Under the pieces are notes generated by a model. It did not search any database, was not told the origin of the DNA, and saw nothing but the letters and a program-made list of their open reading frames with translations. From Arenicella xantha (GTDB lineage: Bacteria > Pseudomonadota > Gammaproteobacteria > Arenicellales > Arenicellaceae), in assembly GCF_003315245.1 (NCBI RefSeq), contig NZ_QNRT01000002.1:239245-303244 (forward strand): a DNA stretch of 64,000 nucleotides, read 5' to 3'. The position numbers and the translations under genes were made by a program. Below are positions 1-49,879 of this stretch, in pieces. How positions within the stretch are numbered: position 1 is the first letter of the stretch; each line of letters begins with the position of its first letter.

Positions 1-1
1 T

Positions 2-262
2 AACACACCAATTATCCCGGATGGCCACGTTGCTAGCCAAGACGAGCTAATTGCTGCGCAAAACGCGGTTAAGGCGTTCCAAGAACGAAACCTAAGCTTC
101 TTACTTTGCCTTGATGAACAGCGCGCGGCATTGACCCCAGAAGCCGAAGGCAACGAAGAAAAAATGGCCGCATTTAAACAGGCTGAAGATGACGCAATTG
201 AACTCGAAAAGTCAGTTGCGAATGAGTTCAATACGGCGCGTAAAGCCTTCATGGCGCGTTAA
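2..262 (+). CDS. C-terminal part of an unknown protein (5' end outside window)
   Basis: An open frame enters from the left edge and stops at a TAA ending at 262, giving 86 visible residues. The visible part starts with a Pro/Ile-rich stretch containing PDGHVAS, followed by a charged, mostly helical region rich in Ala, Glu and Lys (AAQNAVKAF, AEDDAIELEKSV) and one Cys in LLCLD. It resembles small conserved proteins with a P-DG-AS-E-AAQ-VK-F pattern of unknown function. I do not assign a role. A strong terminator follows about 85 bases downstream, consistent with this being the last gene of its transcript. Confidence 0.55.
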   Translation, partial: NTPIIPDGHVASQDELIAAQNAVKAFQERNLSFLLCLDEQRAALTPEAEGNEEKMAAFKQAEDDAIELEKSVANEFNTARKAFMAR

Positions 263-344
263 AGGTAGTTATGCTAATAGGTAGGTAAGGTAGCTCGTTA
301 GGCGATCGCCCTACCATCAGTGGACTAGCCCCGATTAACAATTT

Positions 345-380
345 AAAAAGGCGTACCGTGATTACGGTACGCCTTTTTTT
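345..380. terminator. Rho-independent terminator, probably bidirectional
   Basis: A 10-bp perfect stem (350-359 with 364-373) around a 4-base loop is preceded by five A and followed by seven T. It lies between the plus-strand partial gene ending at 262 and the minus-strand pckG stop at 438, and the A and T flanks suit termination from both sides. Confidence 0.9.
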
Positions 381-437
381 ATACTACTGATAGTTAACAT
401 CGTTGAGATAGCACTGCCTCAACGATGCTAGCAACTA

Positions 438-2183
438 CTAGCTCGCTAAAGCAGCCTTAACAAGTTCATGCTGCGCTTTGAGCTTAGCCGGCAAACGATC
501 GCCAAAGCTGGCCAAATACTCGCCAAATTCATCCATTTCTTGTCGCCACTGCTCAGGCTCGATCGAAATCAGCGACTGCCAGACGGCTGGGTCGATACCT
601 AAATCATCAATATTCAGCCCTTCAGCGTTCGGCAAATAGCCAATAGGTGTTTCGTCTGCATCGACTTCGCCCTTGCAGCGCTTAATAATCCACTCAAGCA
701 CGCGCAAATTATCACCAAAACCAGGCCAAAGAAAATCACCGTCCTCATTCTGCCGAAACCAATTCACGTGAAACACCTTTGGCAATTTATCTAGGCGCTC
801 AGAGAAACTCAACCAATGCCCCCAATAATCAGCGAAGTTATATCCACAAAACGGTTTCATCGCCATCGGATCACGTCGCACAACACCAACCTTTCCAGTC
901 GCAGCCGCAGTCGTTTCTGATGCCACGCTGGCACCGACTAATACGCCGTGCTCCCAAGATTTAGCTTGATAAACAAGCGGTGCAAGTTCGCGTCTACGAC
1001 CGCCGAAAATAATCGCGGATATAGGCACGCCATCAGGTGCTTCAGCCAGCGATGAATAGGCTCGATTTTCAGTCGCGGCCACCGTAAAACGTGAGTTTGG
1101 ATGCGCCGCAGGACCATTGCTAGATTGATAGGCATCGCCCTTCCAGTCAATGCTTGGCACGCCCTCTTTCTTGTCTTCCCACCAAGGTTGACCATCTGCG
1201 GTTTGCGCCACATTGGTGAAAATGGTGTTTCGTTGAATCATGTCGAAGGCATTGCGATTAGTCTTGGCATTGGTACCCGGCACTACGCCAAAATACCCAG
1301 CCTCTGGATTAATTGCGCGCAACTGACCATCGTCACCTGGATGCAACCACGCAATGTCGTCGCCCAATGTCCAAATTTTCCAATCCTTATATTCCTCTGG
1401 CGGAATCAACATGGCAAGATTGGTTTTTCCGCAGGCTGAGGGGAATGCCGCTGCAATATAGTGAATCTCGCCGGCCGGGCTTTCTAAGCCCAAGATCAAC
1501 ATATGTTCGGCTAACCAGCCTTCGTCTTTAGCTTGCCAACTAGCGATACGTAAGGCGTGACATTTCTTACCAAGCAATGCATTGCCACCATAGCCCGAAC
1601 CATAACTCATAATGCTGAGTTCTTGCGGGAAGTGCATGATGAAACGGCGCTCTGGGTCTAACTCACCGATAGAATGCAAACCTTTAACAAAGCCGCCCTC
1701 TTGCTCGATTCTGGCTAACGCCGCTGCGCCCATCCGAGTCATCAATTTCATATTGATAACGACGTAAGGACTGTCGGTTATTTCAACACCGCAGCGCGAG
1801 TAAGGTGAGTCAATGGGGCCCATACAATACGGCACAACGTACATCGTTCGACCCTGCATACAGCCGTCGAACAAAGCATTCATTTTCGCCTTTGCATCGG
1901 CAATCGGCATCCAGTTATTGTTGTCACCAACAGTGTCTGGCGCGTCAGTACAGATATACGTAAGATGTTCAACCCGCGCAACATCCTGCGGGTCAGAGAG
2001 ATGTAGATAACAATTTGGATGTGTCTCAGGGTTAAGCGACGACAACGTGCCGTCTTCCAACATCATATCAATAATATGTTGGTACTCTGAATCACTGCCA
2101 TCACACCAAACAATTTCTTGCGGTTGTGTTTGCGCAGCAACGGTAGACACCCAATTTGCCAATTCTTGATTTTTCGTGGTCAT
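438..2183 (-). CDS. pckG: Phosphoenolpyruvate carboxykinase (GTP)
   Basis: This cytosolic enzyme interconverts oxaloacetate plus GTP with phosphoenolpyruvate, CO2 and GDP, the entry step of gluconeogenesis. The 581 residues match the GTP-dependent family (about 600) rather than the ATP-dependent PckA (about 540). Family marks are the SYGSGYGGNALLGKKC stretch (about 193-208), the nucleotide-binding P-loop FPSACGKTNLAM (247-258) whose Cys is the typical hyper-reactive residue, and, near the C-terminus, CGYNFADYWGHWL and HVNWFRQ. The ATG at 2183 has only a weak ribosome-binding site. It stands alone and ends against the terminator at 345-380. Most gammaproteobacteria use the ATP enzyme, so the GTP form is mildly notable. 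Confidence 0.96.
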   Translation of the reverse strand: MTTKNQELANWVSTVAAQTQPQEIVWCDGSDSEYQHIIDMMLEDGTLSSLNPETHPNCYLHLSDPQDVARVEHLTYICTDAPDTVGDNNNWMPIADAKAKMNALFDGCMQGRTMYVVPYCMGPIDSPYSRCGVEITDSPYVVINMKLMTRMGAAALARIEQEGGFVKGLHSIGELDPERRFIMHFPQELSIMSYGSGYGGNALLGKKCHALRIASWQAKDEGWLAEHMLILGLESPAGEIHYIAAAFPSACGKTNLAMLIPPEEYKDWKIWTLGDDIAWLHPGDDGQLRAINPEAGYFGVVPGTNAKTNRNAFDMIQRNTIFTNVAQTADGQPWWEDKKEGVPSIDWKGDAYQSSNGPAAHPNSRFTVAATENRAYSSLAEAPDGVPISAIIFGGRRRELAPLVYQAKSWEHGVLVGASVASETTAAATGKVGVVRRDPMAMKPFCGYNFADYWGHWLSFSERLDKLPKVFHVNWFRQNEDGDFLWPGFGDNLRVLEWIIKRCKGEVDADETPIGYLPNAEGLNIDDLGIDPAVWQSLISIEPEQWRQEMDEFGEYLASFGDRLPAKLKAQHELVKAALAS

Positions 2184-2435
2184 AATCAGCGATTTGGTTG
2201 GGTTTCAGGATTGTCTTGGTACGCTTTTTTTACGCGAACAATGCTCCCACTAGAGGGGATCCCGAGGAAGTGATATTCCTTGCTGGCACGTGTTGGTTGC
2301 CGAGGATTGCACAAAGCTGACGTTGTACCTATTTTTGTCAGCAGGAGTCTAACAATCAGGCACGTCGTTGCCTAGTGCTAAGCGCAATTACTCGGTATTC
2401 ATCCTAAAAATTCGAGGCACCGCAGGCACCAGATA

Positions 2436-4295
2436 CTAATAACCTTTGCTCGGTACCCGCAAGCGCTGTCCAACCTGAATAATCGACGAGCGTTGCAGTC
2501 GATTTGCATCCAGCAACGCACTGCATCGAACACCGTATATATCGGCAATTCCGCAAGGAGTTTGACCTCGCAATACAGTGTGCCAACTATTAGCTGAACT
2601 AACACGAACTTGTTGGCCCACCTTAATCACACTGCGAGTTGTTAAACCGTTAACCGCGAGAAATTCCGCGCAACGCATTCCAAACCGTTCAGCGATAGCA
2701 CATGACGTATCCCCTCGCTTAACGCGATAACTCTGCACCTTGGCATCACTTGATGCGGATGCCGAAGACGCCATTGTCGATGACGTCTCAACCGCGGGAG
2801 ACCTAGATGATTTAGCCACTGAAATACCGCCGGTTGCGGTAGGCACCTTAATTCGATCACCGACATAGATAGTGCCCATTTTGTTTAGCCGGTTTAACTG
2901 CACCAACTTGCGACAGGACGCTCGATATTGCTCAGCAATACCACAAGCCGTTTGCCCGCTGCGAACCCGATGCCAGACGAAACCGGGCCGCTCAGTCTCC
3001 CTAGGCAACGCATTCATCTTATCAATTGACGCCGTCCAATTCGCATTAGTGTTCGGTAAACGTAATGGATACCCTTTAGGTATCAACGCTTTGTGCTCCC
3101 AAATTACTCTTTTTAGCGCCGGATTCAACTTTTTCAGCGTAGCCGCATCAACGTTAAGCTGTTGAGCCACGCGTTTAACCGAGGTAGCTCTCGTAAGCTC
3201 AACTGTACTAGAAGCTAGATCTTGGTCGGAATCAGGCGCTTGAATAACACCAAAGAATTTTTCACTATTTTTTGCCACATGACGAGCAGCTAAAAAGCTC
3301 GCATAAAAATTCTTAACCGCGGTTTGAAAACTTGGCGATTTATACTCGACCAATAGTCGCTCGTAGTCCAGCCCGACTTGCTTAATTGCCCGCTGCATTC
3401 CGCGAACCCCATAGTTATAGGAGGTAATGACGAATGGATTCAGGTCTTTCGCAACTACGCTGTGACCGTTCTCAAAGGCTGTCTCACTTAAGTTGTCAAC
3501 GCTGTTACGAAAACACAAGGCTGCCGCAAACGTGGCGGCAGTCGGGTCATAGCGTTGATCTACCTTGGCATCAACAGTAAGGCCGAGCGTACGCCCCGTG
3601 CTTGGCATAATTTGCCACAATCCAGCGGCGCCAACGTGCGACAAAGCTTCAGGATTAAAAGCCGATTCAACAAACGGTAGATATTGCAGTTCAGGAGTCA
3701 GGTTCTGCCCCTTTAGAGCCTCTAATATTGTCGGCTGATATCGAACGTACTGGGTTAATGCTTCGCGCATTCTGTCTTTGTTACCAGACTGACAACGAAT
3801 CCGCCCTGCCGCTGCACGCACTTCGCTAACCGACTCTCCCACAAACAACGAGTGTAAGAACTGCTCGCTGTCGCTCAAGGTTTGATCTTTGCTTAATTTG
3901 CTTGCCAAATTCTCAAGGTCGCGTTTTAACCTGCTCCGTTCTCGATAAATAGAGTCCCCTTTGCGCGAGCGCCTGCAGCCCTCCTCACGCTTAACAGTCG
4001 AGTAAACTCGATGTGGATTGTCTTTATCGTGGAACACGGCGGTACCTGTATCCCAACGACTAAATACCTCAACCCAAAAGGCCACACGAGGCATTAGCGA
4101 AGTTGGGCAGGAAAAAGTTTCATCACACTGTAATTCATACACGCCAACTGGAGTAAGCAGTGGCGTTGATGCGCGTGCAGCACTAACACCAAACAACACC
4201 AATAGTGTCGCGGCGGCAAGCGTGATGATGGCAGATGGGCTTGGAGCAACAGGCTTCGCGCACCGCACTCTTTGAACTACTTGTACTACTCGCAC
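2436..4295 (-). CDS. Secreted lytic transglycosylase with three cysteine-paired LysM repeats (MltD-like)
   Basis: Predicted to cleave peptidoglycan glycan strands in the periplasm, forming 1,6-anhydro-MurNAc ends. About residue 22-43 is a hydrophobic signal/anchor. The SLT domain spans roughly 185-350 with the catalytic Glu in FVESAFNPEA (E211, numbered from the TTG at 4298) and the family block GAAGLWQIMPSTGR (223-236). A degenerate LysM-like linker (366-413) is followed by three LysM repeats at about 442-485, 524-566 and 572-615. Each carries a Cys pair exactly ten residues apart (452/462, 533/543, 582/592), suggesting one disulfide per repeat. GTG at 4295 is chosen because GGAG lies six bases upstream; TTG at 4298 is possible. 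The family is well supported; the substrate detail is inferred. Confidence 0.9.
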   Translation of the reverse strand: MRVVQVVQRVRCAKPVAPSPSAIITLAAATLLVLFGVSAARASTPLLTPVGVYELQCDETFSCPTSLMPRVAFWVEVFSRWDTGTAVFHDKDNPHRVYSTVKREEGCRRSRKGDSIYRERSRLKRDLENLASKLSKDQTLSDSEQFLHSLFVGESVSEVRAAAGRIRCQSGNKDRMREALTQYVRYQPTILEALKGQNLTPELQYLPFVESAFNPEALSHVGAAGLWQIMPSTGRTLGLTVDAKVDQRYDPTAATFAAALCFRNSVDNLSETAFENGHSVVAKDLNPFVITSYNYGVRGMQRAIKQVGLDYERLLVEYKSPSFQTAVKNFYASFLAARHVAKNSEKFFGVIQAPDSDQDLASSTVELTRATSVKRVAQQLNVDAATLKKLNPALKRVIWEHKALIPKGYPLRLPNTNANWTASIDKMNALPRETERPGFVWHRVRSGQTACGIAEQYRASCRKLVQLNRLNKMGTIYVGDRIKVPTATGGISVAKSSRSPAVETSSTMASSASASSDAKVQSYRVKRGDTSCAIAERFGMRCAEFLAVNGLTTRSVIKVGQQVRVSSANSWHTVLRGQTPCGIADIYGVRCSALLDANRLQRSSIIQVGQRLRVPSKGY

Positions 4296-4298
4296 CAA

Positions 4299-4710
4299 TT
4301 ACTCCGCCTCATTCTATTGTTTTAATTTTTCTAGGTTAGTAATTTACCAACCTGACCTTGCGCAAAATATGTGCGCTAATTTGCACCATCCGAGTGCGCT
4401 TCGATAATACCCATAGAAGGCCGACGTTTACATCATTATTGCTAACAATTTAACCAAGATGACGTTAATCGAAAAATGTGAGCTTACCGCTTAATCAATA
4501 TTCATCAGCATCACATTTAGCACTATGGCGCCTGATAAAATAGCTTTCTGATGCGAGCCTGACACAACACACCGCATGAAGATCGTGGCGATTATCCGTA
4601 TCAGCGCTCTCCGCCTGAGTAAGCGCTATTACAGTGAGTGGCGAACCTGTAGTTAGGGTCGATCAATCAGGACTTTACAAACAAGCACACGCTAAATAGG
4701 ACACACCACA
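4299..4710. other. Divergent intergenic region
   Basis: This 412-base spacer separates the minus-strand lytic transglycosylase from the plus-strand DUF2878 gene and must hold both promoters. I see a GGAG-type ribosome-binding site next to the transglycosylase start and AGGA nine bases before the ATG at 4711. No convincing -35/-10 pair, tRNA, repeat or small ORF was found. Confidence 0.5.
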
Positions 4711-5238
4711 ATGAACAACTTATTTCGATGGTCCACGCTGATTAATGCCAGCCTATTTCAAGCCACTTGGTTTGCCTGTGTTTTGGGTAGCGCTAAAGGT
4801 CTATTGTGGCCAGCTTTCGCATGCTGCGCTGCACTCGCCTCGTATCAATTGCATAATAAACGCCGAGTTGAGAGCGACCTGCAATTGGTCGCGCTAAGTG
4901 TCTTACTCGGGTTGATGGTGGATACCTTGTGGCTTCAGCTAGGGTTCTTACAATTTACCGACCCACGCCCTGTCACGGCCATGTCGCCGGCCTGGATTAT
5001 GCTCTTGTGGGTTGGTTTTGCGCTGACCATCAATCACTCTTTGTCGTGGATCAACGCTCACCCTTTACTCCCGGCGGTGTTAGGCGGGATCGGCGGCCCG
5101 CTCTCGTACCTTGCTGGTGAACGACTTGGCGCAGTGACATTCACCACCAATGTTACCGCCTTAATGATCTATATCGGCATTGCTTGGGCTATTTCCTTAA
5201 CTTTGTTAGCGTTGGTAGCAAAAGACAAACAAAATTGA
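4711..5238 (+). CDS. DUF2878 family inner-membrane protein
   Basis: A 175-residue, strongly hydrophobic protein with about five or six membrane segments separated by short polar loops (QLHNKRRVES near 47-56, DPRPVTAMSP near 85-94). The arrangement, including the conserved LGLMVDTLWLQLG block and GGPLSYLAGERLGAV near residues 130-145, fits the DUF2878 family, whose function is unknown. It precedes the DAHP synthase gene by 84 bases on the same strand and may be cotranscribed with it. No catalytic residues can be named. Confidence 0.8.
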   Translation: MNNLFRWSTLINASLFQATWFACVLGSAKGLLWPAFACCAALASYQLHNKRRVESDLQLVALSVLLGLMVDTLWLQLGFLQFTDPRPVTAMSPAWIMLLWVGFALTINHSLSWINAHPLLPAVLGGIGGPLSYLAGERLGAVTFTTNVTALMIYIGIAWAISLTLLALVAKDKQN

Positions 5239-5322
5239 CTATGTCGCCGGCTTGCTGTGCCATCACACAACATTCTATGGTTAAATAGCAGCAAGTAGTC
5301 ATCCTAACCCCCTGCTGGACCC

Positions 5323-6396
5323 ATGAGTCTCGAAAACACAAATATCGCCAACCTTGAACGGTTGGTTACTCCCGTTGAATTTAAAAAACGGTTACCTCTT
5401 ACCCCGCAAATTGCGTCACATGTTGAAGCCAGTCGCCAGACTGTTCGAGATATTTTGGATCGCAAGGATCAACGACTGTTCGTGGTAGTAGGCCCCTGTT
5501 CGGTGCACGACACGAAGGCAGCTATTGAATATGCCTCACGCCTTAAGCTTTTGGCTGACGAATTAGCGGACGATTTATTTATTTTGATGCGCGTGTATTT
5601 CGAGAAACCGCGTACCACCGTTGGTTGGAAAGGTTTGATCAACGACCCCTATCTTGATGGCAGCTTTCAAATCGAAAAAGGCATGTCCATAGGTCGCGAG
5701 TTGATGTTAAAGATCAATGAAATTGGTTTACCCATAGCTAACGAAGCACTCGACCCTATTTCACCGCAATATATGCAAGACCTAATTACTTGGTCGGCAA
5801 TCGGCGCGCGGACTACCGAATCACAAACTCACCGAGAAATGGCCAGCGGCTTGTCGGTGCCAATTGGCTTCAAGAATGGTACCGATGGCTCGCTCGGCGT
5901 GGCAATTAATGCTCTGCAGTCAGTCAGTAACGGCCATAGTTTTTTAGGTATTGACCCAGAAGGTAAGGTGTCGATCGTGCACTCCTCAGGCAACCAGTAT
6001 TCACATATCGTGCTGCGAGGCGGTGGCGGCAAACAAAACTACGACTCAGTCAATGTACGGTTAACCGAACGAGCTTTACGCGAAAACCAACTTCCGATCA
6101 ACATTATGGTGGATTGTAGTCACGCGAATTCGAATAAAGACCCTGAACTACAGCCATTAGTACTGGACAATATTACCCAGCAAATTCTTGAAGGAAATCA
6201 AAGCATTGTGGGAGTAATGCTGGAAAGCCATCTAATCGCTGGCAGTCAAAAACTCGGTGACGATAAGTCTCAACTCGAATATGGCAAGTCCATCACTGAT
6301 GGCTGTATCGGCTGGGAAACAACCGAAGAGTGCTTAAGGCAAATGGCGCAGAAGCTGCGCCATTTCAAAAAGTCAGTTAGCCAAAACTACGTATAA
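5323..6396 (+). CDS. aroG: 3-deoxy-7-phosphoheptulonate (DAHP) synthase, class I
   Basis: Catalyses the first step of the shikimate pathway, condensing phosphoenolpyruvate with erythrose 4-phosphate in the cytosol. At 357 residues it has the standard class I AroF/G/H length. Visible signatures are VVGPCSVHD (55-63, with the metal-binding Cys), the substrate loop FEKPRTTVGWKGL (93-105) and the late MVDCSHANS motif. Which aromatic amino acid inhibits it cannot be decided from sequence alone, so the aroG label is nominal within the AroF/G/H group. Its last 20 bases overlap the 3' end of the convergent transporter gene, so no terminator fits between them. Confidence 0.95.
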   Translation: MSLENTNIANLERLVTPVEFKKRLPLTPQIASHVEASRQTVRDILDRKDQRLFVVVGPCSVHDTKAAIEYASRLKLLADELADDLFILMRVYFEKPRTTVGWKGLINDPYLDGSFQIEKGMSIGRELMLKINEIGLPIANEALDPISPQYMQDLITWSAIGARTTESQTHREMASGLSVPIGFKNGTDGSLGVAINALQSVSNGHSFLGIDPEGKVSIVHSSGNQYSHIVLRGGGGKQNYDSVNVRLTERALRENQLPINIMVDCSHANSNKDPELQPLVLDNITQQILEGNQSIVGVMLESHLIAGSQKLGDDKSQLEYGKSITDGCIGWETTEECLRQMAQKLRHFKKSVSQNYV

Positions 6397-7714
6397 GCAG
6401 CGCAACCACAATAAGCGGACACACGAATCGCACGTAGTTAGGCCAAATTTTCCAGAACAGGGTACGCTCCAGATGCGGGCTACCCTGTTTAAGTTCGGTC
6501 AAAAGCTGGTCACGACGCCAAATCCATCCGACGAAGATACAAAACAATATTCCTACCAATGGCTCACTGAATTCAGTCGCAATTCGTACTACCCAGTCGA
6601 ACAACCAAGAAGCGTTCAACACAATCACAACGCTAAACGCAAAGATTGCCATTCCGACGACCCAAGCGGCTTTTTTACGATTCATGCTACGACTATCAGT
6701 GGCGTATGCTACCGGTACTTCGAGCATCGAAATTGATGAAGTTAAAGCGGCGATACTCATTAAGGCAAAGAACACCAACGCCACCATAGACCCAGCACCG
6801 CCCATCGTGTCGAACAGAGAAGGCAGCACGTTGAAAATGAGACGTCCACTTTCAATCAGATTACCCGCTTCGTCGTAAATCACCACGCCATTATGCTGCG
6901 CTACATACATGGCCGGAATAACCAACATGCCAGCTAACACCGCGATACCGATATCCATACCAGCCACCGTTGCACCAAGCTTTGGCAAGTTTTCAGTCTT
7001 ACTTATGTAAGATCCGTAAACCATCATTGTGCCAACGCCCAGTGATAACGAGAAGAATGCTTGACTAAGCGCATCCATCACTAAGCCGGGCTCTAGAACC
7101 TTGGAAAAATCAGGTTGCAGATACACTTTCCAACCTTCAGCGGCACCTGGTTGCATAGCGATATAGACAATCAACGCCACGATCAGGAGAATCAATACGG
7201 GCATTAGTCGAGTAGACCACTTTTCAATACCGCTAGCCACGCCGTTGGCGACAATTCCTATTGTCAGCACATAGAATACAGCACTAAAAAGAACGCTCCG
7301 AGTTATAGACTCGCTCACCAACCATGAATCAGAGACACCGATGATTTGCGCGGCAGCACCAACCCCATGAGCAATCATCCAACCGGCGACAATGGCGTAA
7401 AAACTGAGTATTAAACTAGCAGTTAACATTCCCCAATAGCCGGTCATAAACGCCAAAGGACGAAATGCTGAAGAGCTGACCGCCGCCACTGACCGAACCG
7501 TATCAGCCTTCGCGTAACGACCAATAACCAGCTCTGCCATCAAAATGGGATACGCTAATAAGAAGGTAAGAATGATATAGGTGAAAACAAATGCTCCACC
7601 GCCATTCGATGCAACTTTAATTGGGAAGCCCCAAATATTCCCCAAGCCAATTGCCGAACCAGATGCGGCTAATACAAACGCTGTGCGTGAACTAAACTCT
7701 CCTCGTGCAGCCAT
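6377..7714 (-). CDS. Sodium-dependent transporter of the NSS (SNF/LeuT) family
   Basis: Predicted Na+-coupled amino acid symporter of the inner membrane. The 445 residues contain about eleven hydrophobic segments, and the N-terminal hallmark GSAIGLGNIWGFP (residues 19-31), the unwound first helix that binds Na+ and substrate in LeuT-type proteins, is intact. The length is typical for bacterial members. It lies between a DAHP synthase and an aspartate/aromatic aminotransferase gene on the same strand as the latter (78-base gap), so an aromatic amino acid such as tyrosine or tryptophan is a reasonable substrate guess; known bacterial NSS members include tyrosine and tryptophan carriers. The substrate is inference only. 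Confidence 0.93.
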   Translation of the reverse strand: MAARGEFSSRTAFVLAASGSAIGLGNIWGFPIKVASNGGGAFVFTYIILTFLLAYPILMAELVIGRYAKADTVRSVAAVSSSAFRPLAFMTGYWGMLTASLILSFYAIVAGWMIAHGVGAAAQIIGVSDSWLVSESITRSVLFSAVFYVLTIGIVANGVASGIEKWSTRLMPVLILLIVALIVYIAMQPGAAEGWKVYLQPDFSKVLEPGLVMDALSQAFFSLSLGVGTMMVYGSYISKTENLPKLGATVAGMDIGIAVLAGMLVIPAMYVAQHNGVVIYDEAGNLIESGRLIFNVLPSLFDTMGGAGSMVALVFFALMSIAALTSSISMLEVPVAYATDSRSMNRKKAAWVVGMAIFAFSVVIVLNASWLFDWVVRIATEFSEPLVGILFCIFVGWIWRRDQLLTELKQGSPHLERTLFWKIWPNYVRFVCPLIVVALLIRSFG

Positions 7715-7792
7715 CTTCTCTCCTAAATCATTCTTATTGTAATTGTAATTTTTCTCTCAGCTAGCGCCCAGCGAGTGCTGCATAGTTAATCG

Positions 7793-8989
7793 CTAACGAG
7801 ACAAGACTTCGGATACCCGATCAATAATTATCGGAAGGTTTTCTTGTGATAATCCAGCGACATTGATACGTGTACTGTCGAGCAAATAAATACCGAATTC
7901 TGAGCGCAACGCATGCACTACCTCAAGTGGTATGCCCAGATAACAGAACATGCCTTTGCTCTCAGCCACAAAGCTAAAATCAATACGCGACTGAGCCTGA
8001 TTTAAACCTTCGGCTAGCTCAAGACGCAAGCGATTCATTCGCAGCCTTACCTGCTCTAATTCAGTCTTCCATTCACTGGTAAGTTCGGGGTCACTCAATA
8101 ATAGTCCAACAATTCCGCCACCATGGTACGGCGACATACTGTAAGAACTGCGCGCTGCAGTAAGAATATGAGATTTGGCCGCTAAGGTGGTCTGTGGGTC
8201 TTGTGTAATGACCATTACCGCGCCAATTCGTTCACGATATAACCCAAAATTCTTCGAACAAGATGCCGCTACCAATACCTCGGGTAAGCGCTTAACCGCT
8301 TCGCGCACGCCATAAGCATCCTCGGCTAAGCCATCACCGAAACCTTGGTAGGCCACATCAATGAACGGTGTTAATTGACGCTCGGCGAGAACGCTAATTA
8401 CTTGATCCCATTGCGCCGGACTTATGTCCGCACCGGTTGGGTTATGACAACAACCGTGCAACAGCACCACATCGCCCACCGGGATCGCCTGAAGCGATTC
8501 CAACATAGCCGTGAAATCAACTGAGTGGGTCTCGGCACTGTAGTAGCTATATTTCTCTAATGTCAGGCCAGCGCTTTGCAGCAACGGATAATGATTAGCC
8601 CATGTCGGATCACTAACCCACAACGTGACATTTTGCTTGGCATGACTCAATAACTCAGCGCCCATTCGTAATGCCCCACAACCACCGGGAGTCATGACAG
8701 CTGCAACACGGTCTTGTAATTGCTCGCTAAGCTCATCGCCGAGCAACAGTCGTGTCATGTGCTCTAAAAATGATGGATCACCAGCCTGCGGGGCATATGA
8801 TTTAGTATTCTGAGCGGCTAATAACTGCTGCTCAGCTTTTTTGACTGCGGTGAATATTGGCGTCAAACCTTGGGCATTCTGATAGACACCAATCGACAAA
8901 TTAATTTTGTCTGCATTGTCGTCCTGCTGAAAAGTCTGATTGAGTCCAAGTATCGGATCGGGCGGCAATATATCTAGTTGTCCAAACAT
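7793..8989 (-). CDS. tyrB: Aspartate/aromatic amino acid aminotransferase (class I, PLP)
   Basis: Transfers amino groups between aspartate or aromatic amino acids and 2-oxo acids; with DAHP synthase nearby, the last step of tyrosine/phenylalanine synthesis is a likely duty. The 398 residues align with the AspC/TyrB group: the N-terminal ILPPDPILGL, the GCCHNPTG motif (N183), the D211-containing DVAYQGFGDG and the PLP lysine K246 in SCSKNFGLYRERIGA. The conserved Arg binding the substrate carboxylate is seen near the C-terminus (DSTRINVAGL). TyrB versus AspC specificity cannot be separated from sequence, so the symbol is tentative. Confidence 0.9.
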   Translation of the reverse strand: MFGQLDILPPDPILGLNQTFQQDDNADKINLSIGVYQNAQGLTPIFTAVKKAEQQLLAAQNTKSYAPQAGDPSFLEHMTRLLLGDELSEQLQDRVAAVMTPGGCGALRMGAELLSHAKQNVTLWVSDPTWANHYPLLQSAGLTLEKYSYYSAETHSVDFTAMLESLQAIPVGDVVLLHGCCHNPTGADISPAQWDQVISVLAERQLTPFIDVAYQGFGDGLAEDAYGVREAVKRLPEVLVAASCSKNFGLYRERIGAVMVITQDPQTTLAAKSHILTAARSSYSMSPYHGGGIVGLLLSDPELTSEWKTELEQVRLRMNRLRLELAEGLNQAQSRIDFSFVAESKGMFCYLGIPLEVVHALRSEFGIYLLDSTRINVAGLSQENLPIIIDRVSEVLSR

Positions 8990-9038
8990 TGTTTCAGTTG
9001 CTCAAAGGAAAAAGTATAAACAGGAAACCGTCTACGTA

Positions 9039-9590
9039 CTACGCAGACGGGTTAGCGGGCGGATCAGTCTCGTCGGTTGGCGTGGTCCGTTTTATCTCGG
9101 AAAGATACTTAAACAGCAAGCGAGCCGACTTGGGAGTTGTATTTCGTTTTAATTCGGCACCGGCATTGCGCACAAGCTGACGAATATGTTGGCGGTCAAT
9201 GACCGGATATTGATCGATCAATTCGGTCAGCAATTGTTCATCGCCGCCGATCAGTCGATCACGCCATTGCTCCAACTGGTGGAGTTCGGCAGTTTGTTGT
9301 TTTGTGGGCTGCTTCTGACGCGCAAGTTCGAGTTGAATCGCATCAACGTCTTCATATTGCATTAACGACGCAATACGACGCAATTGCCGCTGTAGAGGAC
9401 CGCGCTGAAAGCGTTTGCCATCTTCAATTGCGCGCAGCATATTGTCGCTTAAGGGAACTTTTTTCAGTGCCGATGGCGGCAGAGAAATCAACTCTTGACC
9501 CAAGTGATTTAACGCTTTGATCTCTTTTTTAAGTTGTGTTTTATTCGGCCGGACGGCGTATTCCGATTCAGTCATCAGCTTATCTAACAC
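9039..9590 (-). CDS. darP: DarP/YjgA family ribosome-associated protein (DUF615)
   Basis: A helical, highly charged protein of about 180 residues matching DUF615. The E. coli member (YjgA, renamed DarP) assists late maturation of the 50S ribosomal subunit. Recognisable family stretches are RPNKTQLKKE, LGQELISLPPSALKKVPLSD and the central RFQRGPLQRQLRRIASLMQ. Two starts are possible: GTG at 9590 and ATG at 9575; neither has a clear ribosome-binding site, and the frame stays open upstream to just after the sensor kinase stop but without another start codon. The gene follows the kinase by about 130 bases. Confidence 0.9.
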   Translation of the reverse strand: MLDKLMTESEYAVRPNKTQLKKEIKALNHLGQELISLPPSALKKVPLSDNMLRAIEDGKRFQRGPLQRQLRRIASLMQYEDVDAIQLELARQKQPTKQQTAELHQLEQWRDRLIGGDEQLLTELIDQYPVIDRQHIRQLVRNAGAELKRNTTPKSARLLFKYLSEIKRTTPTDETDPPANPSA

Positions 9591-9721
9591 CGACGGATTA
9601 ACATCAGCGCGCTCGTAAATATTAGAAATTGTGGTATCGGGTTTAGGCTCGGAATTATGCGCTTGCTGCCCTCGGTTTACCAGCCCCGATTTAATATTTA
9701 CTGCTACTGCAGCATTGGGCG

Positions 9722-11065
9722 CTATCTCTTATTACGTCTTTTTTTTAGGAAATTGGGGCGCGACGACTCATCGAAGATACATTCTATTTTAGTGCCAACG
9801 TTTACTTCGCTCTCAACTTCGACGATCCAGTTAAACCGATTTGATAAACGTTTAACGATGGTTAGCCCTACTCCGTAGCCTTTACGTTCTGTTTTACCTA
9901 CCTGATCGGCACGGTAATAAGGTTGGAAAATTTTCTTAGTTTGCTCTTCGGTCATACCAATGCCCGTGTCTTCTATGACCACAGAATGCTCCTTAATGGT
10001 GACCTTGACGGTGCCCTCATTGGTATACAAAACAGCATTACGAATCAGATTCCCCAACACAATAGACACAACTTTACGCGCCGTGTTCAGCTGCAATGGA
10101 AACTGCTCATCCACTTCGATTGTAATGGGCTTATCGTCTAAATATATTTCGGCATCTCTAATCTCACGTTCAACGATATCAGCAATCACCGTATGCTCGT
10201 CTTCGAACTCTTTATCGGTTTCACGTGCCAAAATCAAAAACGCATCAATTAGCTCCTCCATGTCCCGTGCCGCACCTTTGATACGAGTCACGAATTTTTT
10301 TGAATAGGCGTCTAAGTCTTGCTCGGCTAACAGTAGATCTGATGCCATTTTTATTACGGTTAACGGAGTACGGAACTCATGACTCGCGTCACGCGTAAAT
10401 GCCCGCTCACGCTGAACAAAGCGCTGTATCCGGCGCGAATAAGAGCTAAACGATGTCACCAACTTCTCAACCTCCCAATCTACGTCACCAGGGATATCGG
10501 AGAGGTCTTTAAGACTAGCACTGGCATGTGCCGGATCAAAACGGTCGAACTTATTGGCTAGCCAGACAATCGGGCTCAATAGATGATTTGATTCGCGATA
10601 AACCCACCAAGCGGCAACGTAAATCAACACCAAGCAAATGGTTAACGGAAATATTCCAAAAAACAGCGCCAAACGCAGCACGCTCTCGCCATCGAATAAC
10701 AAATGCAGGCGCTTACCGTCATGTTCACTGGTATAAAGCAATGAATGCGCGGTTTGACCATGCATTTTATGGAACCCTAAACCATAGCCTTTTAACTCTT
10801 CCGGCACACCTTCTTGAGAATTAGCGACAGTCAAATAGCCTTTAAGGTTGTCAGTATTGGGCGGGGGAAAACTCGGATCGACATTGTAGGTCTCCCAAAA
10901 ATGCCGCGACTCTCCCGTGAGCGCTTGCTTAACTAAAAATTGTTCGATAACCACACTAGCAAAACCAATACCAAGCACCGCTACTAACGCAATCAAACAA
11001 GCTTGCAGCGTCATTTTTCGACTCAACTTGCTGCGAATAATCGATTGCCTAATGTCTCCGTGCAT
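9722..11065 (-). CDS. Sensor histidine kinase (EnvZ/PhoQ-like architecture)
   Basis: Membrane-bound sensor of a two-component pair. Two membrane segments (about 20-41 and 131-155) bracket a roughly 90-residue periplasmic domain, followed by a HAMP-like linker. The dimerisation/phosphoacceptor box is FTRDASHEFRTPLTV with H229; an N-box (NLIRNAVLYTNEG), a D-box (IEDTGIGM) and a G-box (GYGVGLTIVKRL) complete the ATPase domain. It follows its likely partner regulator (start 11949) on the same strand, with a 194-base gap that holds no obvious gene. The stimulus is unknown; the C-terminal tail is Arg/Lys-rich. Confidence 0.94.
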   Translation of the reverse strand: MHGDIRQSIIRSKLSRKMTLQACLIALVAVLGIGFASVVIEQFLVKQALTGESRHFWETYNVDPSFPPPNTDNLKGYLTVANSQEGVPEELKGYGLGFHKMHGQTAHSLLYTSEHDGKRLHLLFDGESVLRLALFFGIFPLTICLVLIYVAAWWVYRESNHLLSPIVWLANKFDRFDPAHASASLKDLSDIPGDVDWEVEKLVTSFSSYSRRIQRFVQRERAFTRDASHEFRTPLTVIKMASDLLLAEQDLDAYSKKFVTRIKGAARDMEELIDAFLILARETDKEFEDEHTVIADIVEREIRDAEIYLDDKPITIEVDEQFPLQLNTARKVVSIVLGNLIRNAVLYTNEGTVKVTIKEHSVVIEDTGIGMTEEQTKKIFQPYYRADQVGKTERKGYGVGLTIVKRLSNRFNWIVEVESEVNVGTKIECIFDESSRPNFLKKRRNKR

Positions 11066-25677: not shown

Positions 25678-26391
25678 CTAGTTTGTCGCCACAAACTTTT
25701 CCAGAAAAGCTTCAATTCGCTTAGCATTTGCACCTAAATCACTTATACCAATCCGCGACACTGAACGCAGATCAATGGCGGTTTTATCTCCTTGCTGCGC
25801 CACTCTAATCACCACATCATCTTTAAAGCCCCATAACATGGTAGTTTGCGTGGCTTCGATTACACCAGCTTCGGCGTTTACATTAACAATTTCCCAACCC
25901 AATGACTTTGCCACCGACAGCGCTCGGTCAAAAGCCGCTTGCGTCGGCACGTCAGTCAACAAGGTCTTGACATTGGGATAAGCTGATACCTGGGCACTTG
26001 CTAAGGTTTCAGCGTCGTAGTTAAGTGGATTATGATGCTCTGAACGTATGCCGGCAATTTTATCAAACGCTGGAGGATTAGTAACATCCGTCGATATATT
26101 GTGGATTGGTGGCACGTTGTCAGCGGTTAACTTTAAATACCCCATCCCGATAATTGGAATCATAACGAGGTACGCTGCAGTTCGTGCAGCTTTAGCCATT
26201 GCCGGATTCGATCGGCGCTTAACAAAGGTTATGACCATTGATAGGAAAAACACCGCAACGGAAAGGACGACCGTGTAGGTAATAATCGTCGCCGCCACAG
26301 AAAACGGATAAAGGCTCATCCGGTAACCAATCACTGCGATCGGGAAGCCCAGTAGTGCTAATATTGCAACTGGTTTAAACAGCTTGATCAT
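25678..26391 (-). CDS. DUF1499 family membrane-anchored protein
   Basis: A 237-residue protein with about three N-terminal membrane helices (10-30, 35-60, 73-85) followed by a soluble domain. The soluble part shows the DUF1499 pattern: PPAFDKIAGIRS, ALSVAKSLGWEIVNVNAEAGVIEATQTT, FKDDVVIRV and DLRSVSRIGISDLGANAKRI. The family is uncharacterised; in many bacteria it is a single-domain periplasmic protein, here with an added membrane part. It follows nagZ by 32 bases, probably as the last gene of the minus-strand operon. Confidence 0.88.
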   Translation of the reverse strand: MIKLFKPVAILALLGFPIAVIGYRMSLYPFSVAATIITYTVVLSVAVFFLSMVITFVKRRSNPAMAKAARTAAYLVMIPIIGMGYLKLTADNVPPIHNISTDVTNPPAFDKIAGIRSEHHNPLNYDAETLASAQVSAYPNVKTLLTDVPTQAAFDRALSVAKSLGWEIVNVNAEAGVIEATQTTMLWGFKDDVVIRVAQQGDKTAIDLRSVSRIGISDLGANAKRIEAFLEKFVATN

Positions 26392-26423: not shown

Positions 26424-27461
26424 TTAAATGTTCGATTCGCGTGCGCTAAGCCGCGAGAGTTTAGCAGATAAGGCCTCGTTAGGTTCAAACTCTAAACCTT
26501 CGAGCAATTCATCCGCCAAATCGGGGCGATTACAGACTAAGACCATATCGCATCCAGCGTAGATAGCGCGTTGAGCGCTCTCCACGATTGAACTACTGGC
26601 TATTGAGCGGTCATCCACCGCATCCCTAAACTTATCTTGCGAAGCGCCACCAGGCACTGCATCAATTGCTCCTTGCATCGTAAGGTCATCGCTAAAGATA
26701 ACCCCTTCGAACGCCAGCTCTTGTCGCAATACCGTCTGCAACCAAAAGTCAGAATAAGTCGGAATCGAGTCATCGCAGGCACTGAATAGAACATGAGCAG
26801 TCATAACCCCGGCAATTTCATTAATAAGCTGCTGGTACGGGACCAAATCACGCTTTGTTATTTCCTGTATTGCTCTGGGGTCCGTGGGCAAACAATGATG
26901 CGAGTCGCCACTAACACCGCCATGGCCAGGAAAATGCTTTGCAATAGCGACCATACCCGCCGCATGCATGCCATCAATGTAGGCGCCTAAAAGCTCGGCG
27001 GCGACCATTGGATCCGCATGAAAACACCGATCACCAATCACATCGCTGGCTTGAGAGGTCACATCAAACACCGGCGCAAAACTAAAATCTACGCCAACAT
27101 CGATAAGTTCACTTGCCATGGTAAACGCTGATTCAAATGCCTTTACCGGCGCAGACTGACAATCCTCTTGCCATAACTTGCCGAATTCATCGGCAGCTGG
27201 CAATCGGGTAAACTGGTCTTGAAAGCGTTGAACCCGACCGCCCTCTTGATCAACCGACACCAACAAGGCAGGATGACGCAGCGCCTTAATCTCCTTGATC
27301 AACGCCCTAACTTGATCTCGACTTTGGTAGTTTCTGGCAAATAATATCACCGCCCCAACGCTAGGATGTAGCAAGCGGTCACGTTCATGCTGCTCCAGCG
27401 TTAATCCTGCCACGTCGACCATCACTGGGCCAAGCGGTAAATGATGTTCAGAATAAGTCAT
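26424..27461 (-). CDS. nagZ: Beta-N-acetylhexosaminidase NagZ (GH3)
   Basis: Removes GlcNAc from GlcNAc-anhydroMurNAc peptides in the cytosol during peptidoglycan recycling, which also controls AmpC induction in some species. The 345 residues show GPVMVDVAGLTLEQHERD at the start, DQEGGRVQRF, the GH3 signature KHFPGHGGVSGDSHHCLP with the His/Asp pair and the nucleophile Asp in FSDDLTM. It starts five bases after the stop of the YkuD gene. Confidence 0.97.
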   Translation of the reverse strand: MTYSEHHLPLGPVMVDVAGLTLEQHERDRLLHPSVGAVILFARNYQSRDQVRALIKEIKALRHPALLVSVDQEGGRVQRFQDQFTRLPAADEFGKLWQEDCQSAPVKAFESAFTMASELIDVGVDFSFAPVFDVTSQASDVIGDRCFHADPMVAAELLGAYIDGMHAAGMVAIAKHFPGHGGVSGDSHHCLPTDPRAIQEITKRDLVPYQQLINEIAGVMTAHVLFSACDDSIPTYSDFWLQTVLRQELAFEGVIFSDDLTMQGAIDAVPGGASQDKFRDAVDDRSIASSSIVESAQRAIYAGCDMVLVCNRPDLADELLEGLEFEPNEALSAKLSRLSARESNI

Positions 27462-27466
27462 AATAT

Positions 27467-27958
27467 TTATTGTATAGATACCTTTGTGCCGATCTCAACT
27501 CGATCGAAGAGTCGCACAATATCGTTATTTCGCATCTTGATGCAACCATGTGAACTCGGCACGCCCATTGAGTGCGTGTCAGGTGCGCCGTGTATGTATA
27601 TATAACGCCGCTGTGTATCAACTGACCCGCCGCGATTAAACCCTGATTGATTACCACATAACCACAGAATGCGTGTAAGTATCCAGTCACGCGTAGGGAA
27701 CCGCTTAAGCAACGCGTCAGAACATATTTCACCAGTTGGTCGGCGCGCTATGAACACCGAATTCAACGGTTGTCCAGCACCAATTTTAGCGCGAATTCGA
27801 TGCTCACCAAGCGGTGTGCACTCACTCCCCATCATTTGGCCCACGCCATTACTGGCGGTCGAGATCGATGCTCGATACACAGCATTACCGGCGTCACAGA
27901 AGCCCTCAAGGGTTTGCTCGCTGGTATCGACGATAATGTGCACTATGTTTTTAGGCAT
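27467..27958 (-). CDS. YkuD (L,D-transpeptidase-fold) protein without signal peptide
   Basis: A 163-residue protein that is all catalytic domain, with no signal peptide or membrane segment, so it should stay in the cytosol. The YkuD core is clear: YIYIHGAPDTHSMGVPSSHGCIKMRN with the nucleophile Cys in SHGCIKM and preceding His residues; DWILTRILWLCG and VDTQRRY also match a compact family. Cytosolic YkuD proteins such as A. baumannii ElsL act as L,D-carboxypeptidases trimming tetrapeptides in recycling, so that activity, rather than crosslinking, is my inference, supported by nagZ five bases downstream. It overlaps the phosphatase gene by 8 bases. Confidence 0.88.
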   Translation of the reverse strand: MPKNIVHIIVDTSEQTLEGFCDAGNAVYRASISTASNGVGQMMGSECTPLGEHRIRAKIGAGQPLNSVFIARRPTGEICSDALLKRFPTRDWILTRILWLCGNQSGFNRGGSVDTQRRYIYIHGAPDTHSMGVPSSHGCIKMRNNDIVRLFDRVEIGTKVSIQ

Positions 27959-28433
27959 CGAGAATATGCTCTAGTAAAGCATCACAGCCTTTATCGACTA
28001 AATCGAACACCTGCTCGAAACCGGACTCGCCACCATAATACGGGTCTGGCACGACCAACTCGTCAATCAACCCCGCTTGGTTGGCATACGACAGAAATAA
28101 TGCGACTTCAGCCTGGTGACCTTGTGGTGCGTAATAATTGACCAACTCTAGATTATCGTGGTCCATCGCCAGAATGTAATCATATTCATCATAATCGAGT
28201 ATCGAGATTTTCTGGGCACGGATAAACTCCATATCAACGCCTCGTTGAGCAGCGGCCTGCCGAGACCGTGGGTCGGATTTTTCGCCGACATGATATGCAT
28301 GAGTTCCGGCTGATTCAATATGGAAACGCTTTGCCAATCCTCGCTCCGTCACCTTCGCCTGCATTACACCGTGGGCAGTCGGCGATCGACAGATGTTCCC
28401 CATACACACAAACAAAATTTTAGTCATAGCCAT
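27951..28433 (-). CDS. Low-molecular-weight protein-tyrosine phosphatase
   Basis: A 160-residue cytosolic phosphatase. The P-loop CMGNICRS begins at Cys10 with Arg16 (C-x5-R), and the general-acid Asp is in VPDPYYGGES near the C-terminus. Bacterial members often dephosphorylate tyrosine kinases governing capsule or envelope polysaccharide. It precedes the YkuD gene with an 8-base overlap. An internal ATG three codons in is an alternative start. The family is certain; the target is unknown. Confidence 0.95.
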   Translation of the reverse strand: MAMTKILFVCMGNICRSPTAHGVMQAKVTERGLAKRFHIESAGTHAYHVGEKSDPRSRQAAAQRGVDMEFIRAQKISILDYDEYDYILAMDHDNLELVNYYAPQGHQAEVALFLSYANQAGLIDELVVPDPYYGGESGFEQVFDLVDKGCDALLEHILDA

Positions 28434-28522: not shown

Positions 28523-29254
28523 TTAACGGGCAAAGAGCTTTCGAGCATTTTCTAAGTCTTCTGGAGTATCGACGCCAACGCCGGTCTCATAATCGACCGT
28601 TTCGACCACAATTTTGTAGCCGTTGTCTAATACTCGCAACTGTTCTAAAGACTCGGTCAGCTCCATATTACTGGGTAACAGATTGTGGTAACTGCGCAAG
28701 AAACCCGCCCGATACGAGTAAATGCCGATATGGTGCCAAGCACTAGCCTGCCTGTCATTACGCGCATAGGGAATCGGCGCTCTAGAAAAATAGAGCGCGT
28801 CGCCGTTTTGCGCAAATACCACTTTCACCACGTTGGGGTTTATGATTTCCTGCTCGTCCACTAATGGCTTTGCAGCCGTAGCCATTGCCGCTGTAGAGGA
28901 TTGACTCAACGCATTAGCAACTTGATTGATAAGTTGACTAGGCACGAACGGCTCATCACCTTGAACATTAACAATAATGTCTTGATCCGAAAAGTCTAGA
29001 GTCTGAACCACTTCCGCCAATCGGTCGCTACCACTTAAATGATCTGCACGAGTCATGCAGACTTCACAGTCAATCGCTTCAAGAGCATTAGCGATTCGCT
29101 CGTCGTCAGTCGCTACCACGACACGTGTGGCCTCTGACTCATTAGCACGATCAACGACATGCTCAATCATTGGCTTACCGCCGATATCGGCCAGCGCTTT
29201 GCCGGGCAATCGAGTCGATGCGTATCGGGCCGGAATTACTACAGTAAAAGACAT
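28523..29254 (-). CDS. kdsB: 3-deoxy-manno-octulosonate cytidylyltransferase (CMP-Kdo synthetase)
   Basis: Activates Kdo as CMP-Kdo for lipid A inner core synthesis. The 243-residue protein shows the nucleotidyl loop IPARYASTRLPGKALADIGGKPM, VVATDDERI, MTRADHLSGSDRLAE and the QGDEPF motif, then the dimer-region YSYRAGFL. Full standard length. It lies 12 bases after a 56-codon Trm112-type gene and downstream of lpxK/msbA, the usual lipid A cluster. Confidence 0.97.
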   Translation of the reverse strand: MSFTVVIPARYASTRLPGKALADIGGKPMIEHVVDRANESEATRVVVATDDERIANALEAIDCEVCMTRADHLSGSDRLAEVVQTLDFSDQDIIVNVQGDEPFVPSQLINQVANALSQSSTAAMATAAKPLVDEQEIINPNVVKVVFAQNGDALYFSRAPIPYARNDRQASAWHHIGIYSYRAGFLRSYHNLLPSNMELTESLEQLRVLDNGYKIVVETVDYETGVGVDTPEDLENARKLFAR

Positions 29255-47972: not shown

Positions 47973-48521
47973 ATGTCAATTGTCCAACAAATTCTGCAAA
48001 TATATACCTTACGGCGTTCACCGAAGGATATTGCGTACCATCCACCAGCAGCGCTACTATTATTTTTTGTAGCGATTGCGCTGTCGACGATACACCTTTC
48101 AAAAACGCCGATTTTTTATTTTCCGACGTTAGCATCGGCGAGCCTATTGGCGGTTGGTGTATCAATTGATTTCCTGATCCTGAAAATTCACAACAAGGCA
48201 AATCGCTTTGTCCAAATGACTACCGCCTCGCTTGGTATCGCTTGCCTGACCACGATCATACTAATTATTGCCACCAACGTTAAAGAACTGACTCTACCGG
48301 CCTTTGTGGCGCAATTGTGGGGGTTCTACTTGGCCATCATCATTCTCCGCGACGCGCTAGAGTGCTCATTCATTAAATCACTTTTAATCACCATTGCCGC
48401 ATACTTGGTTAGCGCTAGCTTTATGATTAATCTCTTTCTTGATGTCGATGCTTTCAAAGTACTGCAAGCTCAATCTATGGCTGAGTTGCAGCAAACAACA
48501 GAGCAAATCAAAGCGCAATGA
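47973..48521 (+). CDS. Unknown inner-membrane protein, Yip1-like
   Basis: A 182-residue protein of about four or five membrane helices with short polar ends, notably the conserved-looking N-terminus IYTLRRSPKDIAYHPPAALLL and the acidic C-terminus LQQTTEQIKAQ. It resembles small YIP1-like membrane proteins but I cannot name a family with certainty. Its last bases overlap the mpl ATG (ATGA), so it is translationally coupled to a peptidoglycan-recycling enzyme. Function unknown. Confidence 0.75.
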   Translation: MSIVQQILQIYTLRRSPKDIAYHPPAALLLFFVAIALSTIHLSKTPIFYFPTLASASLLAVGVSIDFLILKIHNKANRFVQMTTASLGIACLTTIILIIATNVKELTLPAFVAQLWGFYLAIIILRDALECSFIKSLLITIAAYLVSASFMINLFLDVDAFKVLQAQSMAELQQTTEQIKAQ

Positions 48522-49879
48522 AACTGCATATTATTGGAATTTGTGGCACCTTTATGGGCGGTGTGGCACGCCTTGCTCGAGACCTTGGTCATATTGTTAC
48601 CGGCTCAGACGCCAATACCTATCCGCCAATGAGCACTCAGCTCGAATCACTGGGAATCACCTTATACGAAGGCTTTGCTGCAGAGCAAATTGACCACGAC
48701 ATAGACATTGTCGTCGTCGGCAATAGCATTTCACGCGGCAACCCTGAACTTGAACACGTACTAGAGCGCGGTTTGCGTTACACGTCTGGCGCGCAGTGGC
48801 TTGGTGAACATGTATTGCAAGACCGCTGGGTTTTAGCGGTTGCCGGCACGCACGGCAAAACCACAACCAGCAGCATGCTAGCGTGGATACTCGATCAAAA
48901 TGATCTAGCGCCGGGGTACTTGATCGGCGGAGTGCCGGAAAATTTTGGCCAATCAGCCAGATTAGGCAACACACCTTTTTTTGTGATCGAGGCCGACGAA
49001 TATGACACCGCCTTTAGCGATAAACGGTCTAAATTTGTCCATTACCGGCCTAGAACATTGGTTCTCAACAACCTTGAATTTGACCATGCCGATATATTTG
49101 CTGACTTGCACGCAATCCAAACTCAGGTTCATCACCTAATTAAAACCATTCCAAGCCAAGGCCAAATTATCCATAATCGCCATACCCCCGCACTCGATGA
49201 ACTACTCAAGTGGGGCGTTTGGAGCGAAACCGCGCGCTTTGGCAGCAGCGATGCAGAATGGGTTGCAAGCAAAACGTCTGATGACGGGTCTAGATTTGAG
49301 ATCAACCACAAAGGCTCTGCCCACGCAGTTGCTTGGGATCTCATTGGTGACCATAACGTGATGAACGCCTTAGCGGCCGTCGCGGCAGCACACCATGTTG
49401 GGATTCGCGTAGAACATGCGGTTGAATCACTCTCTACATTCAAATCAGTTAAACGGCGCATGGAGAAAATTTATGACAACAATGGCATTCGTATTTTCGA
49501 TGATTTTGCGCATCATCCGACTGCCATTAAAACAACCTTAGAGGGTCTGCGGCATCAAGTTGGCAAGCAAGCGATTATCGCTGTACTTGAGCCCAGATCA
49601 AACACTATGAAGCAAGGCATACATAAGCATCTATTAAGCGACGCGTTAAGTGCCGCTGACGCCTGCTTTTTATATGCTAACGGAGATGTCAATTGGGATA
49701 TTAGCGAGCTCGAAAACGAGCAGATTAGCACTCATCACACCGTTGACTCGCTACTCGAAGCACTTATCTCCAAAACCACACAGCTCGGCGACCAAGCGAT
49801 CAATGTGGTCGTCATGAGTAACGGAGGCTTTGAAAACCTCCACCAGCGCCTTATTAGCAAATTACCGACACCGTGTTAA
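48518..49879 (+). CDS. mpl: UDP-MurNAc:L-alanyl-gamma-D-glutamyl-meso-diaminopimelate ligase
   Basis: Adds recycled tripeptide to UDP-MurNAc, bypassing de novo synthesis. The 453 residues contain the Rossmann start IIGICGTFMGGVARLARDLGH, the P-loop AVAGTHGKTTTSSMLA (GTHGKTTT at 110-117), and the central EADEYDTAFSDKRSKFVHY with the NLEFDHADIF motif; the C-terminal domain includes DDFAHHPTAI and EPRSNTMKQGIH. It overlaps the membrane gene upstream. Its presence together with nagZ and the YkuD protein indicates an active recycling pathway. Confidence 0.95.
   Translation: MKLHIIGICGTFMGGVARLARDLGHIVTGSDANTYPPMSTQLESLGITLYEGFAAEQIDHDIDIVVVGNSISRGNPELEHVLERGLRYTSGAQWLGEHVLQDRWVLAVAGTHGKTTTSSMLAWILDQNDLAPGYLIGGVPENFGQSARLGNTPFFVIEADEYDTAFSDKRSKFVHYRPRTLVLNNLEFDHADIFADLHAIQTQVHHLIKTIPSQGQIIHNRHTPALDELLKWGVWSETARFGSSDAEWVASKTSDDGSRFEINHKGSAHAVAWDLIGDHNVMNALAAVAAAHHVGIRVEHAVESLSTFKSVKRRMEKIYDNNGIRIFDDFAHHPTAIKTTLEGLRHQVGKQAIIAVLEPRSNTMKQGIHKHLLSDALSAADACFLYANGDVNWDISELENEQISTHHTVDSLLEALISKTTQLGDQAINVVVMSNGGFENLHQRLISKLPTPC

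Follow-up and report, generated by a model that had tools for sequence, protein, structure and literature searches.

A gene for a YkuD protein of 163 aa in Arenicella xantha, located between nagZ and the gene for a low-molecular-weight protein-tyrosine phosphatase, very probably encodes a cytosolic L,D-carboxypeptidase of the ElsL class that fills the role of LdcA in peptidoglycan recycling. The gene lies in a window of 64,000 nucleotides, which is the whole stretch of DNA that was analysed. An earlier note on this DNA had proposed a cytosolic YkuD enzyme of this type as a replacement for LdcA, and the proposal is well supported by the family match, the lack of room for an export signal, the absence of LdcA and of VanY-family proteins from the genome, the presence of the other recycling proteins searched for and the gene neighbourhood. 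These features, like the conserved residues and the predicted fold, were observed for the A. xantha protein itself; its reaction and substrates are predicted by analogy with ElsL of A. baumannii. Since ElsL is an already described class, the A. xantha gene represents a further example of it and not a new mechanism. In this LdcA-less genome an ElsL enzyme very probably completes the cycle of peptidoglycan recycling, and a class-wide survey adds a family-level count of the mutual replacement of elsL and ldcA, together with a lead towards a transporter.

Locus layout and the missing export signal

The minus strand carries, in order, kdsB (28523-29254; TIGR00466, 295.3 bits), the phosphatase gene (27951-28433; Pfam LMWPc, 134.3 bits), the YkuD gene (27467-27958), nagZ (26424-27461) and, downstream of nagZ, a gene for a DUF1499 membrane protein (25678-26391). 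NagZ, the beta-N-acetylglucosaminidase of recycling, matches Pfam Glyco_hydro_3 with 250.9 bits and NCBIfam PRK05337 with 395.4 bits (cut-off 207). The phosphatase translation carries the CX5R motif CMGNICRS, CX5R being the catalytic motif of the low-molecular-weight phosphatase family. As the earlier note had stated, the YkuD gene overlaps the phosphatase gene and sits five bases from nagZ: read from the DNA, the phosphatase stop and the YkuD-gene start share eight bases (27951-27958), and a gap of five bases (27462-27466) separates the YkuD-gene stop from the nagZ start. Mpl, the ligase that would reuse the tripeptide product, had also been placed correctly within the window, with its gene 20 kb away on the plus strand (48518-49879; TIGR01081, 645.3 bits, cut-off 388.7). 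The DUF1499 gene is present in most loci of the genus at low identity (36-66% among loci L006-L019).

The YkuD protein had been described as lacking a signal, and this holds from the DNA alone. In the minus-strand reading an in-frame TAG stands four codons 5' of the ATG, the open frame comprising 167 codons for a protein of 163 aa, and the Pfam YkuD match (78.7 bits) starts at residue 7; together, the stop codon and the early domain start leave no room for a signal peptide. YkuD is the sole Pfam domain found in the protein, which has neither a peptidoglycan-binding domain nor the N- and C-terminal domains of LdcA (Peptidase S66). Exported YkuD L,D-transpeptidases require a signal peptide or a membrane anchor, and the 163-aa protein has neither. 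By eye, hydrophobic N-terminal stretches can be seen in the translations of the genome's other two YkuD proteins.

Family assignment, conserved residues and predicted fold

The best family match of the 163-aa protein is NCBIfam NF040925 (ElsL), with 182.8 bits (E 3.8e-54) over residues 7-160 against model positions 7-156 of 164, and the next-best NCBIfam models reach 32 bits. Likeness to A. baumannii ElsL was judged via this family model, not by pairwise alignment to the A. baumannii protein. The A. xantha protein scores under the curated cut-off of NF040925 (270 bits for this exception model, LD_carbox_ElsL), so the narrow label is not claimed for it, and its activity is a predicted one; this cut-off was reached in none of the 232 sampled genomes of Gammaproteobacteria. 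At E<=1e-15 the model had no match in 14 control genomes, and YkuD proteins are present in six of these. The best matches include named relatives, uncultured Arenicella among them. The two other YkuD matches of the A. xantha genome (L002, G000 C1:933697-934080; L003, G000 C1:515429-515803) gave 20.9 bits with NF040925 in one case and nothing in the other. Their best model is DpaA/LdtF, where 32.3 and 92.1 bits fall short of the cut-off of 365, and no 3-3 cross-linking transpeptidase model is among the models listed for them.

Purified A. baumannii ElsL is reported to cleave disaccharide tetrapeptide and not pentapeptide (Dai et al. 2021, PMC8649774). According to that paper, the function of ElsL in the cell needs Cys138, E. 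coli LdcA corrects its loss, and 624 of 788 ElsL orthologues are in Gammaproteobacteria. The sequence features by which the paper delimits the class are all found in the A. xantha protein, namely similarity over the whole domain, no signal peptide, a length of 105-200 aa, no peptidoglycan-binding domain and the catalytic cysteine of the YkuD motif. It further resembles the A. baumannii protein, as described there, in combining a leaderless YkuD domain and a catalytic Cys with a genome that has the recycling pathway and is without LdcA or LdcV.

The residues of the predicted active site, His123 and Cys139, are invariant together with G124, S136 and G138 in all 140 aligned sequences, the A. xantha protein included, and so are D91, W92, R96, N108, D114, R118 and Y121. 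The SHGC motif reads SSHGC in A. xantha, and its histidine is kept in 118 of the 140. This alignment was drawn from two collections and includes some near-duplicates.

The AlphaFold2 model of the protein has the YkuD fold (pLDDT 96.1, pTM 0.91). Transpeptidases are its top structural matches, and the lists of matches do not tell carboxypeptidases and transpeptidases apart: B. subtilis YkuD aligned with Z 16.4 and rmsd 2.2 over 111 residues, LdtMt1 with Z 16.4 and rmsd 4.2 over 121 residues, and H. pylori Csd6 (PDB 4xzz) with Z 14.5 and rmsd 2.7 over 128 residues. Csd6 is a YkuD-fold L,D-carboxypeptidase, as is predicted for the A. xantha protein; it differs in having a chain of 316 residues, with 14% identity over the match, and it is reported to trim the cell wall and set cell shape in H. 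pylori (PMC4599014). A sequence search of solved structures gave weak matches to six sequences (best E 2.8e-6).

The structural matches would also suit a periplasmic L,D-transpeptidase acting on the cell wall, as most YkuD proteins do, and so would the retained catalytic Cys and His. Export was weighed across 149 class-wide loci (L182-L330), located among 175 genomes with an ElsL-like match, the other 26 genomes not being included. Hydrophobic N-terminal stretches do occur in 14 of the 26 loci of a low-identity branch that matches the ElsL model, which a transpeptidase reading would welcome. However, of the 123 better-matching loci just 2 show such a stretch when the upstream frame is read, and the A. 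xantha protein itself, with its upstream stop and early domain start, has no place for a signal; we consider it extremely improbable that this protein is a periplasmic transpeptidase. The 14 low-identity loci with the stretch (L300, L303, L306-L308, L310-L313, L317, L321-L323 and L328) show 40-46% identity, and the branch is perhaps an exported sister group of ElsL.

Recycling genes and the exchange of elsL and ldcA

The A. xantha genome (4.44 Mb in 29 contigs, completeness 99.32) encodes one AmpG (506.9 bits), one Amidase_2 protein, AnmK, NagZ and Mpl. The earlier note had seen no LdcA gene in the window, and the absence extends to the whole genome, in which neither Peptidase_S66 nor Peptidase_S66C found a match; each of the two models does detect E. 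coli among the controls. Nor did the whole genome yield a match to the VanY family, whose model we take to catch LdcV. Both LdcA and LdcV were searched for with family models only, and the genome may hold an unrelated, so far undescribed L,D-carboxypeptidase. The L,D-carboxypeptidase step is the only tested step of recycling without the textbook enzyme, and it is a step that the ElsL-type protein fits. E. coli LdcA occupies the same position in the pathway, converting tetrapeptide to tripeptide before Mpl, but is an unrelated serine peptidase. LdcV of Vibrio cholerae, reported as a LAS metallopeptidase and an alternative to LdcA in recycling (PMC8649774), is a zinc enzyme, unlike the YkuD protein.

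In the proposed pathway AmpG would import muropeptides, NagZ would remove GlcNAc and an AmpD-type amidase would free the peptide. The ElsL protein, by way of an acyl-enzyme on Cys139, would cut the terminal D-Ala off tetrapeptides, which could be free, anhydroMurNAc-linked or UDP-MurNAc-linked, and Mpl would ligate the tripeptide to UDP-MurNAc. The ElsL protein would in this way take the part of the absent LdcA, and the phosphatase gene would lie upstream of elsL as a member of a kdsB-phosphatase cluster.

The relationship between elsL and ldcA was surveyed in the 232 genomes, which represent 140 families when one genome per family is taken, with thresholds of E<=1e-15 for an ElsL-like match to NF040925 and E<=1e-5 for an S66 match as ldcA. 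ElsL-like matches were present in 175 genomes and S66 matches in 21, with both in two (G083 and G192). At the level of families, 104 had an ElsL-like match and 15 had ldcA, while one had both and 22 had neither (Fisher 7e-9). In a stricter ElsL set of 72 families, where the match was located and of the better-matching kind, both genes were found in one (Fisher 2e-4). Because families are not independent, these P-values serve as guides only. Across the sampled families elsL and ldcA replace each other; with both genes in 2 of the 21 ldcA genomes and neither in 22 of the 140 families, the two genes do not exclude each other completely, and other solutions exist. Among 41 genomes searched, a number that includes that of A. 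xantha, ten were without a match. G083 (L273, L323) has two ElsL-like genes, one of them of low identity, alongside its S66 match, and has no AmpG match at E<=1e-20.

These counts also bear on whether the protein could be a cytosolic YkuD enzyme with another main reaction, for example amidase-type or an exchange on muropeptides, the tetrapeptide being trimmed by a different enzyme. YkuD branches with changed reactions exist, and the amidase-named DpaA model is the best fit for both remaining YkuD proteins of A. xantha, albeit below its cut-off. The A. xantha protein, however, best matches ElsL, a characterised carboxypeptidase, and both the mutual avoidance of elsL and ldcA and the proximity of nagZ argue against a different reaction, which we regard as unlikely.

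Gene neighbourhoods and elsL-linked transporter genes

The order phosphatase-elsL-nagZ is kept in all 29 elsL loci from relatives, so the arrangement is not due to chance. nagZ lies directly downstream of elsL in each of these 29 loci, in 40 of 80 named loci (a set that overlaps with the relatives in species) and in 5 of the 30 best-scoring class-wide loci. Among all 149 class-wide loci it is directly downstream in 35 and anywhere within 3.5 kb in 75; in the better-matching set it was found downstream, on the same strand and within 3.5 kb, in 73 of 123. This neighbourhood supports a role of the ElsL-type protein in recycling. In the comparison with A. baumannii ElsL, placement between a kdsB-linked phosphatase gene and nagZ is a feature recorded on the A. 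xantha side.

The phosphatase follows a different pattern. It immediately precedes elsL in all 29 loci from relatives and in 18 of 80 named loci, but class-wide in none of the 30 best loci and in 6 of 149. Where both genes were located, they are adjacent in 7 of 113 genomes, three of the seven belonging to the genus of A. xantha. Of the 30 best phosphatase loci, inspected over 1.5 kb on each side where the contig allowed, 16 have kdsB nearby and 3 have elsL, the latter all in the genus of A. xantha. kdsB is also present in five of the six class-wide loci with the phosphatase upstream of elsL, and in the sixth the contig ends first. It looks, from these gene orders, as if the phosphatase was tied first to kdsB, and as if the elsL-nagZ pair joined it in this lineage and a few others.

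The earlier note had raised the possibility that recycling is coupled to tyrosine phosphorylation. Such a regulatory unit of phosphatase and carboxypeptidase would be an added claim, compatible with the ElsL role, and is in keeping with the eight-base overlap and with the order conserved among relatives and in some named loci. The rarity of the pair class-wide and the more frequent company of kdsB do not bear the coupling out, and we judge it very improbable. Co-transcription of the phosphatase gene with elsL is likely and does not imply functional coupling.

Class-wide, a common arrangement places elsL between a gene for an SBP_bac_5 binding protein and genes for OppB and OppC, often with nagZ further on. 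For example, locus L094 (4437-10408) contains SBP_bac_5, elsL, two BPD_transp_1 permeases, a FliL-like gene on the other strand, nagZ and a phosphoribosyltransferase gene, and its binding-protein gene overlaps the elsL start; inspection by eye found no ATPase gene among open reading frames of at least 150 aa in 1-4500 or at least 120 aa in 5000-10500. Before the AmpG counts, the 26 of 149 loci with less than 47.5% identity to the A. xantha protein were set aside, leaving 123. On the same strand, a binding-protein gene lies within 1.5 kb upstream of elsL in 51 of these and an OppB-like permease gene within 1.5 kb downstream in 39; either is present in 56 loci, both in 34, and nagZ or transporter genes in 99.

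AmpG was scored as present by TIGR00901 at E<=1e-20, the curated cut-off of 350 bits being approximated by E<=1e-104. It is missing from 29 of the 56 genomes with elsL-linked transporter genes versus 4 of the 67 without. Taking one genome per family, AmpG is missing from 16 of 33 families with such genes and from 2 of 39 without them (Fisher 2e-5), so that 16 of 18 families lacking AmpG have the linked transporter versus 17 of 54 families that have AmpG; at approximately the curated cut-off, AmpG is missing in 20 of 33 and 7 of 39 families, respectively (Fisher 3e-4). Four AmpG-less genomes are exceptions without the transporter; in two of them a binding-protein gene is present at a greater upstream distance (2.9 and 3.3 kb), and in another the locus stops 447 bases downstream of elsL. 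A tree of the 123 ElsL proteins and that of A. xantha had too little support to allow a strict test by independent pairs, with two such pairs on supported branches. Over all its branches, supported or not, transporter and AmpG loss went together in 15 pairs, the opposite was seen in none and 8 showed no difference, this being the commonest of 100 pairings (means 14.4, 0 and 8.6).

The association between transporter genes and loss of AmpG suggests an ABC muropeptide importer that replaces AmpG; retention of AmpG in 27 of the 56 genomes with elsL-linked transporter genes counts against this idea. It is quite possible, if somewhat short of probable, that elsL forms part of a recycling operon with a dedicated importer in many Gammaproteobacteria. 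On this reading the genes on either side of elsL, for a family-5 binding protein and for OppB/OppC-type permeases, with nagZ often following downstream, would encode an ABC system that takes over muropeptide import from AmpG in the families without it. The elsL-nagZ pair of A. xantha would then be the core of this operon in a lineage where AmpG was retained and no importer genes adjoin the pair; the A. xantha genome has AmpG, and the neighbours identified in the window include no such transporter genes. According to PMC9790009, the YejBEF-YepA ABC importer replaces AmpG in Agrobacterium and YepA is exclusive to Alphaproteobacteria. If the proposal holds, the elsL-centred ABC operon would be a candidate muropeptide importer of AmpG-less Gammaproteobacteria, parallel to YejBEF-YepA. 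Titles and abstract openings in one literature collection report neither an elsL-linked peptide transporter nor a nagZ-YkuD operon.

Long open frames had raised suspicion of ElsL fusions to SBP, phosphatase, NagZ, OppB or KdsB, and none was present in 288 loci. One fusion of another kind did turn up: in a MAG of a betaproteobacterium, the ElsL domain is joined with a GNAT acetyltransferase domain (L079:6001-6933).
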